Positions 22,616 to 29,571 of a stretch of 44,126 bases of DNA are shown here, one piece after another. How positions within the stretch are numbered: the stretch's first letter is position 1; every line of letters begins with the position of its first letter. The notes beneath the pieces were generated by a model. That model was not told the DNA's origin. It did no database searches and was given only the letters and a program-made list of their open reading frames with translations. Origin of the DNA: Fibrobacter sp. UWR2. Its GTDB lineage: Bacteria > Fibrobacterota > Fibrobacteria > Fibrobacterales > Fibrobacteraceae. The stretch lies in NCBI RefSeq assembly GCF_002210285.1, contig NZ_MWQE01000014.1:1-44126 (forward strand), in the 5' to 3' direction. A program made the translations under genes and the position numbers.

Positions 22616-25600
22616 ATGACGAACAAGTGCAAACGTGGAATTTTGATTAGCAAGACGCCCTATGAGACCCGCTATGCCATTATGGAAGATGGTGAACTTG
22701 CGGAACTCGTGGTCGACGGCGCTTCTTCTAATCCGATTCTTGGCAATATTTATAAGGGCGTTGTTAAGAAGGTTGTTCCGGCTTCTAGGCTTGCGTATGT
22801 GGATGTGGGCCTCGGTACCGACGGGGTCCTGTACCAGGACAATGTCGTGGATAGGAATGCCGCCCCTTCCCGTACGCTCGACGACGATGACGATGGCGAC
22901 GCGTTTGTGGGGACCTCTATCGAGAAGGTGCTCCATGAGGGCGACGAGATTATGGTTCAGGTCGAGAAGGAACCCGAAGGCAACAGGGGTGCAGGCCTTA
23001 CGATGCGCCTCCTTATCCCGGGTAGCCTTTTGGTCTGCATGCCGAATTCGAACTTCATCGGCGTGTCCAAGCATGAACGCGATATGGCTCGTCGCCGCGA
23101 AGTCAAGGGGATGGTCAACCGTCTCAAGGCTCGCGATGTGGGCTATATCGTGCGTACCGACGGCATGAACGCTACCGAAGAGGAACTGCAGCAGCAGATG
23201 CGCATCCTCGAGGGCAAGTGGACCCGTGCCAAGGAAACTTTTGCGAGCGCCGCACCTGGCGCCTGCATCTACGAGGAGTCCAATTCCGCAGGCCGCTGCA
23301 TCGGCGAATACTTCAACGAGAACACCGATTACGTGTACGTGGACAACCGCGACGAGTACTTCACGCTGCGCGACTACCTGCGCGAAGTCGCTCCCGACAT
23401 GCTGGACAAGGTGAAGCTCTGGAGCTCCAGCGAGAGCCTGTTCGAATACTTCAAGATAGAGAACGACTATGCGCGCTCCCTGCAGCGCCAGGTGCCGCTT
23501 TCCCGCGGCGGGAACCTCGTTATCGAACAGACCGAGGCTCTCCTCTCCATCGACGTGAACACCGGACCGAAGGTGCACGGCAAGGACCAGAGCAAGATTA
23601 TCCTCGAGACGAACATCGACGCCTGCCGCGAAATCGCGAAGCAACTCAGGCTCAGGGACATCGACGGGTTCGTCATCGTCGACTTCATTGATATGGAATC
23701 CGATGCCGACCGTGAAACGGTTTATCAGGAATTCTGCAAGGCCGCCCGCCGCGACAAGGCTTCGGTGACTCCGTCGCCCATTAGCCAGTTCGGCCTCATG
23801 GAAATTACCCGCAAGCGCGTCCGCGACGATTCCGGCAAGACAAAGGCCTGCCCGGTTTGCCAGGGCGGTGGCCGCATTGCCACGCTCGAATCGGCGCTCG
23901 GCATGATCGACCGCTGGATGGCTCGCGCCCATGCGAAGGGCAACCTGAAGAACGTGACGCTCGTGCTCAGTGCCCCGATGGTGGAGGTCCTTGTCCGCGA
24001 CAGGGCCCGCATGCTCCACTACCTCGAGAACAAGCACTGCATGAAGGTCGAACTCGTGCAGGACGACCATGCGCACGTGAACCAGTTCTGGATGTTCAAC
24101 GCCGAAAAGGAAGACATCACGGACCTGTACAACTTTGCGGAATCCGACGCTCCGGCAACATCTGCCCGCCCCAAGCGCGGCAGGGAACGCAGCCGCAACA
24201 AGTGCAAGCGCGAAATCCTTATCAGCAAGACTCCCTACGAGAAGCGCATCGCCATCATGGAAGACGGCGAACTTGCGGAACTGGTCGTAGAGAGCGTGTC
24301 TTCTACCCGCGTGCTCGGGAACATCTACAAGGGTGTGGTGCAGAAGGTTCTGCCCGCACTCAAGGCGGCCTTTATCGATATCGGTATGGAGAAGGCCGGG
24401 TTCCTGCACCAGGACGATGCGATGGACCGTAGCGAACTCTTGCGTCGCGAATACGGTGACGACGATGACGAGGGCGGTCCATCCAAGGAAATTTCCATTG
24501 ATGAAATTCTCAAGGAAGGCCAGGAAATCATGGTGCAGGTGGTCAAGGAACCGATCAGCACCAAGGGTGCCCGCCTTACCACGCACCTGAGCTTTGCAGG
24601 CCGATTCCTTGTCTGCATGCCGGGTACGAACTTCATCGGTGTGTCCAAGCGTGAACGCGACCCGGCCAAGCGCCGTGAGTTCAAGAAGGTCGTCCGCCGC
24701 CTCAAGGGTCGCGACGTGGGTTACATCGTCCGCACGAACGGCCTGAACGAATCCGAATTCGAAATCCGCAAGCAGATGCGCGAACTCGAGAGTAAGTGGG
24801 AACAGACGAAGTTCAACTTCGCGAACCAGCCTGCCGAGACATGCATCTACGAGGAATCCGATTCCATCGAGCAGACGGTGCGCGAATACTTCGGCGAGAA
24901 CACCGACTTCGTGTACATCGACAACCGCGAGGAATTTATCGCCCTGCGCGACTACCTCAAGGTGCTTTCTCCGGACAAGCTCAACAAGGTCAAGCTCTGG
25001 AATTCCAACGAGAGCCTCTTCGAGCACTTCAAGATCGAGAACGACTACGCACGCTCCCTGCAGCGCCGTATCCCGCTGTTCAACGGTGGCAACCTCGTGA
25101 TTGAACAGACCGAAGCACTCGTTTCCATCGACGTGAACATGGGCAAGCCTCGCGGCAAGGACCGCAACAGGCAGGCGCTCGATACCAACATCGAGGCGTG
25201 CCGCGAAATCGCAAAGCAACTCCGCATGCGCGATGTGGGTGGCCTCATCATTATCAAGTTCATCGAGATGTCTGCCGATTCCGACCGCGATTCTGTGTAC
25301 CAGGAATTCCGCAAGGCTATCCGCCGCGACAAGGCGCCTATCAGCCCCGCACAGATTAGCCCGTTCGGCCTGATGGAAGTGACCCGCAAGCGCGTGCGCG
25401 TGAACCTCATGACCGAGAAGACGGAAATCTGCCCGGTTTGCCAGGGCGGTGGCCGTATCGCGATGCTCGAGTCCACCATGGGCGAGATCGACCGCTGGAT
25501 GGGCCGTGCCCGCAACAAGGGCAAGCTCCGCGAAGTTACCCTGGTGGTAAGTTCCGCGATGGTCGATGCCCTCTGCGCCGACTCCTGCCGTATCTACCGC

Positions 25601-25723
25601 TACCTCGAAAGCAAGCACGGGTTGCACATCAATATCGTCGAAGACGAATGCGCACACGTGAACCAGTACTGGATGCTCGACAAGGCGGGCGAGGACATGA
25701 CCGCGCTCTACGGTACTGTGTAA
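22616..25723 (+). CDS. Tandem-duplicated RNase E/G family protein with complementary degenerate copies
   Basis: The 1,035-residue protein carries two complete RNase G-like units: copy 1 about residues 1-509, a basic linker (PKRGRERSR), and copy 2 from 528 to 1035. Each has NKCKR..LISKTPYE..., an S1 domain with an acidic loop, a 5'-sensor region IVRT, a DNase I-like domain and a Zn-link CPVCQGGGR (Cys412/415 and Cys939/942). Against E. coli RNase E, copy 1 keeps both magnesium ligands, Asp313 (SIDVN) and Asp356 (VDFIDM), but has Tyr61, Val71 and Arg124 where Phe57, Phe67 and Lys112 are expected. Copy 2 keeps Phe586, Phe596 and Lys650, but has Lys881 (IIKFIEM) for the second aspartate. ATG 22616 follows AGGA. 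It probably processes rRNA and mRNA. Confidence 0.9.
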   Translation: MTNKCKRGILISKTPYETRYAIMEDGELAELVVDGASSNPILGNIYKGVVKKVVPASRLAYVDVGLGTDGVLYQDNVVDRNAAPSRTLDDDDDGDAFVGTSIEKVLHEGDEIMVQVEKEPEGNRGAGLTMRLLIPGSLLVCMPNSNFIGVSKHERDMARRREVKGMVNRLKARDVGYIVRTDGMNATEEELQQQMRILEGKWTRAKETFASAAPGACIYEESNSAGRCIGEYFNENTDYVYVDNRDEYFTLRDYLREVAPDMLDKVKLWSSSESLFEYFKIENDYARSLQRQVPLSRGGNLVIEQTEALLSIDVNTGPKVHGKDQSKIILETNIDACREIAKQLRLRDIDGFVIVDFIDMESDADRETVYQEFCKAARRDKASVTPSPISQFGLMEITRKRVRDDSGKTKACPVCQGGGRIATLESALGMIDRWMARAHAKGNLKNVTLVLSAPMVEVLVRDRARMLHYLENKHCMKVELVQDDHAHVNQFWMFNAEKEDITDLYNFAESDAPATSARPKRGRERSRNKCKREILISKTPYEKRIAIMEDGELAELVVESVSSTRVLGNIYKGVVQKVLPALKAAFIDIGMEKAGFLHQDDAMDRSELLRREYGDDDDEGGPSKEISIDEILKEGQEIMVQVVKEPISTKGARLTTHLSFAGRFLVCMPGTNFIGVSKRERDPAKRREFKKVVRRLKGRDVGYIVRTNGLNESEFEIRKQMRELESKWEQTKFNFANQPAETCIYEESDSIEQTVREYFGENTDFVYIDNREEFIALRDYLKVLSPDKLNKVKLWNSNESLFEHFKIENDYARSLQRRIPLFNGGNLVIEQTEALVSIDVNMGKPRGKDRNRQALDTNIEACREIAKQLRMRDVGGLIIIKFIEMSADSDRDSVYQEFRKAIRRDKAPISPAQISPFGLMEVTRKRVRVNLMTEKTEICPVCQGGGRIAMLESTMGEIDRWMGRARNKGKLREVTLVVSSAMVDALCADSCRIYRYLESKHGLHINIVEDECAHVNQYWMLDKAGEDMTALYGTV

Positions 25724-25818: not shown

Positions 25819-28800
25819 TTAGTTCTGGTCCCAGGTGAGTTCGTTCTTGCCGCCACGACGCACGCCCCACAGCAGGTCACGCGTGATGTCGGAGACGGTC
25901 TTCTTGCCGACAACCACCTTCATGTGCAGGCGGGCGATATACACGCCCGTGCCGGCGAGGCGTCCGTCGGAGGCGCGCATGTTCCAGGCGAGGAACAGGT
26001 TACCGTTGTTCACGAGGCATCCTGCATCACCGTACACGGACTTGTCGGAGCAGAGGATGGTGCCCGAGCTGCCGCCCACGTAGTTGCCGAGGTGCGTGTA
26101 GTAGAGCGTCTCGTACTTGAGCTTCACGTCGTCAGGCTTGGCAAGGCTGAGCGTACCGTCGCGGAACTGGTCGATATTGTTCGCCGTGATGGTACCGTTC
26201 TTGATGGCCTCGATGACTTCTTCGCTCACGCCGTTCTTCTTGAGTTCCTTCGTCGAGATAGTCCCGTCGATGATATCCTGGAAGAGTTTGTTCACGTCCT
26301 TGTCGGCTGCCGGAGTGATGTTCACGATGGTGTCGCGGCTTGCTTCGATACCGCGTTCCACGTATTCCTTGAACAGGTCGAGGTCATCGCCCTTGAGTTT
26401 CTTCTTGTAGTTGTCGGCAGTGATGGTCCCGTCCATCACTCCCTGGTATGTACTGTCGCTGAAGCCCGTGATGGAACCGGATTCGATTGCAGCAAGCAGC
26501 TGTGCCACCGATTCCTCTTCCGTAATCTCGAGCACGGTGTAGGTGGTGTCGTCCTTGCCGGCGTTCAGGAGCGTGGAGATGAGCGCGTCGAGGCTAGCAA
26601 ACTCTTCGGCTGTCTGGGTCGCGATGAGTTCGGCGACGTCGAATCCGATAAGGTGACCGTCTACGCCGAGGGAGTCAGACACGTACTTCGCGTCGGCATC
26701 GGTGTTCGTGATGAGGAACGGTTCCGTCGTCTTGGCCGTATCGATAATCGGGTTCTCCGGCGAAATCGGGCGTACGTCCGGACCGGTAATCTGCATGTCC
26801 TGCTGGCCGGTGATTCTCACCATCGGGGTGTACCTGTGCGGCTTGTTCTCTGACAGGTCGACCGCGACATCTGTCGTGCTGCCGCCCTGCCCAGGCACAA
26901 AGCCTACGGAGTCGCCAACAGACGGGATAACCGCGTCGTAGGTGGCCATCGTGAACAGCAGGGTCATCTTGCTCTTGGAAGCAGTGTTGTTTGCGCCTAC
27001 GGGCTTCTCGGGGTCTACGACCGCACCGGAACGTATGCAGTGGTAGCGGAACATATCCTTGAAGTGCGTCATGGATTCCGAAGTGATGGCTTCGCTGAAG
27101 GTGAGTTCCAGTTCGTGTCCTTGCTTGGAAATGCTCTTCACTGCCTGCATCACGATCGGGTTCACGCCGTCTTCGAGCGGGTCGGAGGCGATGTGGAAGT
27201 GGTAGCTCTTGCCGCCATCCTTATAGGTGAACCAGGTGTCGACGCTTCCGTTGTAGACGTCTTCCTTGCCGCCGGTAAAGATAAGCGAGCTGAAGCCGCA
27301 CATCTTGTAGGGCTCGCAGGCTCCGCTCGAGACGATAGAGATGTCGGTTCCGTTGTCGAGGATCTTGTAATCCTTCTGGACCGGGAATCCTTCACCGAAG
27401 GCAAACTTCAGGGAGTCGAGTTTGTTGTCGCCACCGAGCTTGCGGTCGAAGTGGATGTATACGCTGTCGCCACGGCCATCGCCGTTCCTGTCGAAGATCT
27501 TCGCCTGCGAGATTCTCGGGATAGGCGGTTCCTGGAATATGAGGTTGATCCATGTTGCCGCGGAGGATGCTGCACCCTTCGCCTGAATCGTGGCTCCCGT
27601 AACGGGGCCGTTCGCAATCACGTAGAAGGTTGCGCGCCCAGTGGAGTCGAGCACCGCCTTGCCGATGGGCTTGCCGTTCGCGTCAACAATCTGCAGTTTC
27701 GGGTCGGACGATGTCAGAGTGATGTTCTGGTTATAGATGGACACCTGTGCCCATTCTTCGAGGAACATGATCTGCACCGGGTAAATCTCGTAGGCCCACT
27801 TGCCAATCTGGAGCGTGTCGCCCGAGACCTGGGAACCGAGAGCCTTCCACTGTTCGGTCGCATAGACGAGAGTCGGCACCTTGTACGGCGGGATGGTGAA
27901 CCATACGCCGGTCTTCTGCGAGGGGTCGGACTTCAGGGTGATTTCCAGGTAGTAGTGACCCGGAGCAAGCCCGTTGTTCTCGACAATCCTTGCGGTGTCG
28001 ATGGTGAATTCCGCCCAGTTGTCATGAATCTGGATGCCTTCGAACCACCACTTGCCTGCGGTGTCGAGGTGTACGCCTGCTTCGCCGAGGTTGCCGCCGG
28101 TAAGCTTGTAGTTGGACGGGCCGATCGTCGTGTCGACCTGGCCGCCTTCGTTGGCGTCAAAGTCACAGCTGAGGGCGTCGCCCTTTGTAATCTGCCAGAC
28201 TTCGTAGTTCTTGGGGCTCCAGATCTGGCCTGTCGCGACGGCATTGAGCGAGTCGTTCGTAAGGAAGATGCTCGCGTCGGTGTGCAGGTCCATGGAGGTG
28301 CGCATCATGAAGTTCGAGGAACTGGTATGGCGTTCCACGTAGAAGATGTGGAACGGGTATTCCTTGCCTTCGACAAGCCCGAGGGTGTCGAGGTCCACGG
28401 CGCCGCTGACTTCGGCGTGCTGTCCGCCGATATCCACGACGAGCCTGTTGTTGATGAACACCCACACGTCGTCGTCACCCTTGAATTCGAACTTCTGGCC
28501 GCGCACGTATTCGAACTTGGCCTGGAACTTCATGGTGAAGCCGAAGTTGTGGTAGCCACCGCTTCCGCTCAGGCGGTCGTAGAAGATATTCTTGACGGTC
28601 TGTGCGGAGTCGAGGTATTCGAAGTCATCCAGGAAGAAGAGACCCTTTTCCGGGCTGCTGCTGTTCTTCTGGCCGAACCAGTAACCCTCGTCGTCGAGCT
28701 TGAGTTCGAGGTCGCGGCAGGTGGAGTTCGTGTACTTCTTGCCTGCAGCGTCCTGGCCAATCTCGATAGGCTGGAACCAGTAGTCAAGCCAGTCGGTCAC

Positions 28801-29535
28801 ATGGCAGTTTTCGGGGAAGTTGCTGGAGTTGCGCTTGGGCACACCGTTTGGGCCGAGTGCCTGCTCCACCATGCCAAGCATGGCCTTGCCGCCGGTGCTC
28901 TGGCAGCCACCGCTTCCGAAGTCGTTACTGATGAGGTAGATAAGGTCGTCGAGAATGGAATCCTTGGCTGCGTTGCCACCGGTCCAGGTCGTCTTGTCTA
29001 CGTCGCCGTAGCTGCCGTGCAGCCAGTCGAACATCATCACGGAGATGATGCGGTTCGGGCACTGTCCGAGGACACCCGGGTATTCCGCGTAGATCTCGGG
29101 CTCGCCGTTCTTGAAGCTCTGGATCCAGAGTGTGTCGCTCAGGGCGGCGACGCTATCGAGCACGATTTCGCTGCCTACGGGGAGAGCCCCGGTAGCGACT
29201 TCTTCGTTACCTTCGGCACCCACGTACATGTTGCCGATGGTCTGCTTGAAGCGGATCCTGAAGTCCGTGGTTTTCTTGTCGGTTTTTGCTTCGAACCAGC
29301 CGCAGTAGTTCTTAACTGCGGTCATGATGGTCTCCTGACCGTTAATGATCATGACAGCCGAGGTATTTGTCCAAGAAGGCATAAAACGGACCACAGTCCT
29401 AGACGTGGTCGCCCGGCTGGAGGAAGACCTTATAGATGTAGATGAAGAGCTCCTGTCACGTCCGGGCTGTGCGCTAGCGCACATCGCCGTGACCAAGGCG
29501 AACAGAATCACTCGAGTGATAGATTTATACCACAC
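25819..29535 (-). CDS. Fibro-slime domain (TIGR02148) secreted adhesin-type protein
   Basis: The 1,238-residue protein starts at GTG 29535, six bases after AAAGGAG; an upstream in-frame TTG was rejected. A signal peptide (ending MCASAQ) and a Ser/Arg-rich stretch follow. The fibro-slime domain is at about 295-420: GLFFLDDFEYLD, FEFKGDDDVWVFINNRLVVDIGGQH and FHIFYVERHTSSSNF, a PA14-like carbohydrate-binding fold. Beta-rich modules occupy the middle (EF-hand-like DRNGDGRGDSVYIHFD near 695). A helical region with repeated GTIT/GSIT segments spans about 1000-1150. The C-terminus (GRLAGTGVYIARLHM) resembles FlgD/T9SS tails. Fibro-slime proteins of Fibrobacter are linked to adhesion to cellulose; the role here is inferred from that family. 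An AT-rich promoter region lies upstream. Confidence 0.85.
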   Translation of the reverse strand: MWYKSITRVILFALVTAMCASAQPGRDRSSSSTSIRSSSSRATTSRTVVRFMPSWTNTSAVMIINGQETIMTAVKNYCGWFEAKTDKKTTDFRIRFKQTIGNMYVGAEGNEEVATGALPVGSEIVLDSVAALSDTLWIQSFKNGEPEIYAEYPGVLGQCPNRIISVMMFDWLHGSYGDVDKTTWTGGNAAKDSILDDLIYLISNDFGSGGCQSTGGKAMLGMVEQALGPNGVPKRNSSNFPENCHVTDWLDYWFQPIEIGQDAAGKKYTNSTCRDLELKLDDEGYWFGQKNSSSPEKGLFFLDDFEYLDSAQTVKNIFYDRLSGSGGYHNFGFTMKFQAKFEYVRGQKFEFKGDDDVWVFINNRLVVDIGGQHAEVSGAVDLDTLGLVEGKEYPFHIFYVERHTSSSNFMMRTSMDLHTDASIFLTNDSLNAVATGQIWSPKNYEVWQITKGDALSCDFDANEGGQVDTTIGPSNYKLTGGNLGEAGVHLDTAGKWWFEGIQIHDNWAEFTIDTARIVENNGLAPGHYYLEITLKSDPSQKTGVWFTIPPYKVPTLVYATEQWKALGSQVSGDTLQIGKWAYEIYPVQIMFLEEWAQVSIYNQNITLTSSDPKLQIVDANGKPIGKAVLDSTGRATFYVIANGPVTGATIQAKGAASSAATWINLIFQEPPIPRISQAKIFDRNGDGRGDSVYIHFDRKLGGDNKLDSLKFAFGEGFPVQKDYKILDNGTDISIVSSGACEPYKMCGFSSLIFTGGKEDVYNGSVDTWFTYKDGGKSYHFHIASDPLEDGVNPIVMQAVKSISKQGHELELTFSEAITSESMTHFKDMFRYHCIRSGAVVDPEKPVGANNTASKSKMTLLFTMATYDAVIPSVGDSVGFVPGQGGSTTDVAVDLSENKPHRYTPMVRITGQQDMQITGPDVRPISPENPIIDTAKTTEPFLITNTDADAKYVSDSLGVDGHLIGFDVAELIATQTAEEFASLDALISTLLNAGKDDTTYTVLEITEEESVAQLLAAIESGSITGFSDSTYQGVMDGTITADNYKKKLKGDDLDLFKEYVERGIEASRDTIVNITPAADKDVNKLFQDIIDGTISTKELKKNGVSEEVIEAIKNGTITANNIDQFRDGTLSLAKPDDVKLKYETLYYTHLGNYVGGSSGTILCSDKSVYGDAGCLVNNGNLFLAWNMRASDGRLAGTGVYIARLHMKVVVGKKTVSDITRDLLWGVRRGGKNELTWDQN

Positions 29536-29571
29536 AAATCGCTCCTTTGTAAACAAACCCAATCCTAGGGC

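Follow-up and report, generated by a model that had tools for sequence, protein, structure and literature searches.

The only RNase E/G gene of Fibrobacter sp. UWR2 encodes two complete RNase E/G units in one chain, and the two units have lost different parts of the ancestral machinery. The gene lies in the window, a stretch of 44,126 nucleotides. Judged from its residues and the selection on them, the protein is very probably a pseudo-heterodimer within one chain that retains a single functional composite site, in which copy 1 would cut RNA and copy 2 would hold it. The features of the gene are listed below in window coordinates.

22616..25723, + strand: tandem fusion of rne/rng (1,035 aa and a stop codon), sole RNase E/G gene of the genome.
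22616..24130, + strand: copy 1 (residues 1-505), putative catalytic unit; alignment to E. coli RNase E, AF2 model (pLDDT 82) that matches the fold of 2bx2.
22733..23005, + strand: S1 domain of copy 1 with degenerate uracil pocket (Y61, V71, R124), from changes at conserved positions; S1 fold with Z 12 to the E. coli S1 domain.
23483..23842, + strand: DNase I domain of copy 1 with D313, N315 and D356 (equivalent to the Mg ligands D303, N305 and D346); D, N and D in 20/20 tandem genomes.
23849..23860, + strand: Zn-link CPVC of copy 1 (C412, C415), both Cys in 20/20 genomes.
24131..24196, + strand: basic linker between the copies, sequence-variable across 20 genomes.
24197..25720, + strand: copy 2 (residues 528-1035), probably RNA-gripping and catalytically dead; alignment to E. 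coli RNase E.
24308..24583, + strand: S1 domain of copy 2, intact (F586, F596, K644, K650); its 36 conserved positions are unchanged throughout the 20 genomes.
25061..25420, + strand: DNase I domain of copy 2 with D346 replaced by Lys881, D349 by Glu884 and a degenerate loop after Asp839; Lys in 20/20, dN/dS 0.23.
25430..25441, + strand: Zn-link CPVC of copy 2 (C939, C942), both Cys in 20/20 genomes.

A sequence-only reading had described a single 1,035-residue protein with two full units, and the open reading frame, its coordinates, Pfam and the alignments all agree with that description. The Pfam search finds two stretches each of RNase_E_G, the Thio domain and S1. RNase_E_G (PF10150) reaches 549 bits over its two stretches, both of which are above the Pfam cut-off. 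Copy 1 and copy 2 align along the whole of their halves to the catalytic domain of E. coli RNase E (2bx2) with E-values of 1.9e-67 and 3.1e-76, respectively. The copies are 61% identical to each other and copy 2 is 82–84% identical to the single-copy enzymes of the genus. In the 20 genomes with the tandem form the linker measures 21–37 residues between fixed motifs. An assembly artefact or assembly duplication is ruled out by the 61% identity of the copies and by the presence of the tandem in 20 genomes. Among named records, Fibrobacter MAGs come closest, such as RUG11683 (labelled F. succinogenes) with 98% identity over copy 2.

The genome is rated 100% complete. Model searches of it gave weak matches below the cut-off and none above it for both RNase J and RNase Y; PNPase was found. 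A putative surface protein of 1,247 aa (25819-29562, - strand) faces rne. It is fast evolving (about 40–80% identity), yet remains the neighbour of rne in most of the relatives with readable flanks.

Key residues were compared in the numbering of E. coli RNase E across the 20 tandem genomes and 75 aligned single-copy homologs from Fibrobacterota. Tyr61, Val71, Arg124, Asp313 and Asp356 of copy 1 align with Phe57, Phe67, Lys112, Asp303 and Asp346, as do Phe586, Phe596, Lys650 and Lys881 of copy 2 with Phe57, Phe67, Lys112 and Asp346, all as originally assigned. The alignment to E. coli RNase E thus places Lys881 at the position of Asp346 and speaks against a misalignment. Copy 1 retains the complete Mg set Asp303, Asn305 and Asp346 in 20/20 tandem genomes. 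Copy 2 lacks it, with Lys at position 346 in 20/20, always encoded by AAG. Asp303 of copy 2 is also gone in nine of the 20 genomes (Lys in seven, Asn in two), and in some lineages the loop after it is scrambled or shortened. By these residues, the decay of copy 2 is more advanced in some lineages.

The opposite pattern is seen in the S1 domain. Two elements form its uracil pocket: Phe67, which is held in position by Phe57, and the Lys112-Gly-Ala-Ala loop (PMC6538622, PMC8522691). Copy 2 keeps Phe57, Phe67, Lys106 and Lys112 in all 20 genomes and so retains the pocket set Phe57, Phe67 and Lys112 throughout. Copy 1 has lost Phe67 in every one of them (Val in 18, Ile in one, Ser in one). The loss of S1 contacts ascribed to copy 1 therefore stands for Val71. 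Its other two supports fared less well: Tyr61 is a conservative change found in 11/20 tandem genomes, and Arg124 is peculiar to Fibrobacter sp. UWR2, the residue being Lys in 18/20 and Glu in one. As signs of S1 loss both appear weak. Lys106 of copy 1 is replaced in 11/20 genomes, by Arg in four.

Such changes are not common in single-copy enzymes. All 75 single-copy Fibrobacterota homologs retain the full residue set wherever the alignment covers the positions. The same holds for 20 homologs of other phyla, with at most a Tyr for Phe67 (18 Phe, 2 Tyr). Loss of Phe67 (0/75 and 0/20) or of Asp346 occurs in no single-copy homolog sampled. Two motifs are common to both copies in 20/20 genomes. 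One is the Cys pair of the CPxC Zn-link, which had been noted as CPVC in both copies of UWR2; in RNase E, these cysteines bridge the principal dimer. The other is the Arg169/Thr170 pair of the 5' sensor. Its retention in copy 1 counts against a clean division of labour, since copy 1 may remain able to sense 5' ends.

Positions that single-copy homologs conserve at genus and class level (36 in S1, 51 in the DNase I domain) were used to locate the changes. Across the 20 genomes, copy 1 is changed in 39% of the S1 cells (position by genome), compared with 0% for copy 2; for the DNase I domain the values are 7.6% and 23%. Positions altered in one copy only are distributed 17:0 (copy 1 to copy 2) in S1 plus 5' sensor versus 3:8 in the DNase I domain (Fisher p 5e-5). 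The dN/dS values of S1, 5' sensor and DNase I domain are 0.032, 0.044 and 0.035 in single-copy enzymes, 0.18, 0.27 and 0.12 in copy 1 and 0.045, 0.040 and 0.23 in copy 2, with overall values of 0.12–0.17 in the tandem form. Tested separately, all six genome pairs show a significant copy-by-domain interaction (p from 5.5e-6 to 9e-18 by Fisher test). By site bootstrap, the copy 1/copy 2 ratio of pN/pS is 5.8 [3.7–9.6] for S1 plus 5' sensor and 0.60 [0.40–0.91] for the DNase I domain. Relaxation is reciprocal, affecting S1 and 5' sensor in copy 1 and the DNase I domain in copy 2, and both copies are under purifying selection throughout. The DNase I domain of copy 1 is not untouched: some of its conserved positions are changed too (340, 373, 374 and 395–399), and its dN/dS of 0.12 exceeds the value in single-copy enzymes.

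The model of copy 1 (AF2 with 59 homologs, pLDDT 82) superimposes on RNase E 2bx2 with a Z-score of 30.5 (393 residues, 4.8 Å). Its DNase I domain matches that of Vibrio RNase E within 1.0 Å and its S1 domain that of E. coli within about 2 Å (Z 12). Since the modelled S1 domain matches the S1 fold, copy 1 appears to have lost the pocket and retained the fold. The RNase E fold of copy 2 is assigned from its alignment to E. coli RNase E. For the whole 1,035-residue chain, AF2 with 17 close relatives gave a pLDDT of 48 and a pTM of 0.28. This poor model most likely results from an alignment that is too shallow.

The RNase E of E. coli is a homodimer and hence has two symmetric composite sites. 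As its crystal structures suggest, RNA is held by the 5' sensor and S1 domain of one protomer and cut by the DNase I domain of the partner (PMC2631609). The 5' sensor, S1 and small domain have been grouped with the non-cleaving protomer, the RNase H domain with the cleaving one (PMC9841335). Tandem duplication and fusion of such an enzyme would yield a covalent pseudo-heterodimer. In the composite site proposed to be retained, S1 and 5' sensor of copy 2 would present RNA to the Mg site of copy 1 (Asp313, Asn315, Asp356); the other site, built from S1 of copy 1 and the DNase I domain of copy 2, would have decayed. The two preserved CPxC pairs would share a zinc ion between the copies. With copy 1 as the cleaver, its own S1, 5' sensor and small-domain half of the RNA groove would be dispensable, and copy 2 could do without its metal site and the part of its groove that belongs to RNase H.

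The groove provides a further comparison, with the residue list taken from PMC6202311. Of the informative residues, copy 1 keeps 3 and 268, both altered in copy 2, and copy 2 keeps 488 and 490, both altered in copy 1. The argument is limited to these four positions because the RNase H and small domains lack the expected overall asymmetry: the RNase H domain is somewhat more changed in copy 1 than in copy 2, and in six genome pairs the small domain has no overall asymmetry between the copies. Together with these four positions, the patterns of S1, 5' sensor and DNase I domain fit cleavage in trans. The division of catalysis and substrate binding between the halves is read from residues and selection. 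The earlier proposal that copy 1 cuts and copy 2 grips RNA gains support from the reciprocal, domain-specific relaxation and from the in-trans arrangement published for E. coli RNase E (PMC2631609). The copies would pair either within one chain or between chains, and the fusion would act as an endoribonuclease.

An arrangement without pairing of copy 1 and copy 2 is unlikely. Copy 1 would then form catalytic homodimers whose altered S1 domain confers another substrate preference, and copy 2 would serve as a separate RNA-binding anchor. The S1 domain of copy 1 that is still folded in the model and under purifying selection (dN/dS 0.18) would suit this arrangement, as would its Arg169 and Thr170. 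However, Phe67, which positions the +2 base (PMC8522691), is gone from every copy 1, S1 and 5' sensor of copy 2 are under the same selection as in active single enzymes, and the losses in the two copies complement each other from domain to domain, with a Zn-link in both copies.

Less likely still is a copy 2 that, as a pseudoenzyme, regulates or stabilises by holding copy 1 in a dimer without presenting RNA. Dimer support alone does not call for an S1 domain in copy 2 with 36/36 conserved positions unchanged in 20 genomes, although the dimerisation and Zn-link residues are retained and Lys346, invariant and always encoded by the same codon in the 20 genomes, could occupy the metal site. That the duplication is functionless, either decaying or mis-assembled, as the patchy distribution on species trees might suggest, is scarcely credible given intact frames in 20 genomes, conserved synteny, dN/dS of 0.12–0.17 and no other RNase E/G there.

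The tandem frame is present in 20/80 Fibrobacter genomes (a quarter of the sampled species) as their only RNase E/G. An RNase E/G match is found in 77/80, and the 57 of these without the tandem frame mostly have an intact single copy in the same syntenic slot. None of the 80 genomes carries both forms or has copies 1 and 2 as separate genes. That tandem and single form never occur together suggests that they are functionally interchangeable. A scan of named genomes, mainly of other phyla, contained five Fibrobacter loci, two of them tandem; outside Fibrobacter no tandem frame was found among 75 loci. In genome G075, rne (locus L097) lies in two overlapping frames, probably due to a sequencing error.

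Other Fibrobacterota families have a second, divergent RNase E/G-like frame of 675–869 aa in addition to a normal enzyme of 520–590 aa. These frames are located as follows.

L100, 5617-8223: second RNase E/G-like ORF.
L101, 5143-7167, - strand: second RNase E/G-like ORF.
L102, 5632-7986: second RNase E/G-like ORF.
L103, 1000-3549: second RNase E/G-like ORF.
L104, 5185-7362, - strand: second RNase E/G-like ORF.

The C-terminal tails shown are basic. As all key residues tested are intact, these proteins look like active paralogs of another kind.

In the tree of the copies, each forms a single clade (support 100/100 for copy 1 and 92/93 for copy 2). Therefore the fusion arose once, and independent duplications are ruled out. 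The stem of copy 1 is long (0.37) compared to that of copy 2 (0.06). Both copies may form a joint clade apart from the single-copy enzymes (AU p 0.34). In most genomes with readable flanks, single and tandem forms share the neighbourhood dnaN, M23 peptidase, HAD, rne and, on the other strand, the large surface protein. On the trees of dnaN and rpoB (the latter from another contig) the tandem genomes are interleaved with single-copy genomes. This requires at least four changes, and monophyly of the tandem genomes is rejected (AU p 2.5e-5). Recombination in the conserved flanks may have exchanged alleles, or both forms may be old and have undergone differential loss. The interleaving of both forms despite one origin per copy could thus reflect allele exchange at the locus or a dimorphism of long standing. 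Were the stretch between the copies deleted, S1 of copy 1 would end up with the DNase I domain of copy 2, two dead halves, and simple reversion should thus be barred. The rpoB gene of one single-copy genome (G009:C8:103700-105287) is split over two open frames, through either an assembly error or a real interruption.

With its copies pooled, the fusion contains all subdomains, Mg ligands, S1 pocket, 5' sensor and Zn-link of the RNase E/G catalytic domain, as in E. coli (2bx2/2c0b) and the 511-aa single-copy Fibrobacter enzyme, whose gene occupies the same syntenic slot. Known RNase E/G enzymes are homo-oligomers of identical chains; the fusion, in contrast, has two copies per chain, with one active site and one S1 pocket left of two each. 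A 2011 survey recorded RNase E/G of Fibrobacteres/Acidobacteria at 511 aa, the single-copy size (PMC3071783). In the literature searched, mostly papers available without subscription, no description of RNase E/G fusions or tandem copies was found. The D303R/D346R mutant of RNase E is catalytically inactive and traps RNA complexes for crystallography (PMC6202311). As in copy 2, its metal ligands are exchanged for long basic residues, and it keeps fold and RNA binding (PMC6202311). The mutant is engineered and altered in every protomer, whereas the changes in copy 2 (D346K, plus D303K in seven genomes) are natural and affect one of two fused copies.

By sequence and fold the protein belongs to RNase E/G; its working principle would resemble that of eukaryotic tRNase ZL. 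In this long form of tRNase Z (ELAC2), a homodimeric RNase was duplicated and fused, and the C-half performs catalysis while the N-half carries the RNA-binding arm (PMC3714273). The likeness is one of analogy and not homology, as the fold is unrelated. The order of the halves appears reversed in Fibrobacter, since in tRNase ZL the N-half grips and the C-half cuts. Furthermore, tRNase ZL lost a whole arm, whereas in the Fibrobacter fusion pocket residues decayed. The fusion may nevertheless offer a bacterial parallel for homodimers that turn asymmetric.

RNase E is a central enzyme of bacterial RNA decay. Evidence on whether its protomers cut in cis or in trans has so far come from crystal structures and cryo-EM of a single enzyme. 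The fusion would represent evolution's own separation-of-function experiment, in which each half lost what the trans model deems dispensable. It may also serve as a tool, as residues of one protomer could be mutated without touching the other, which is impossible in a homo-oligomer. Taken together, the Fibrobacter genomes with the tandem form probably encode a naturally asymmetric, covalently fused RNase E with one composite site. The complementary decay of its halves would then indicate that the enzyme cuts in trans and that a single site in each dimer suffices for life, with tandem and single forms as mutually exclusive versions of one locus between which simple recombination back would join the wrong halves.
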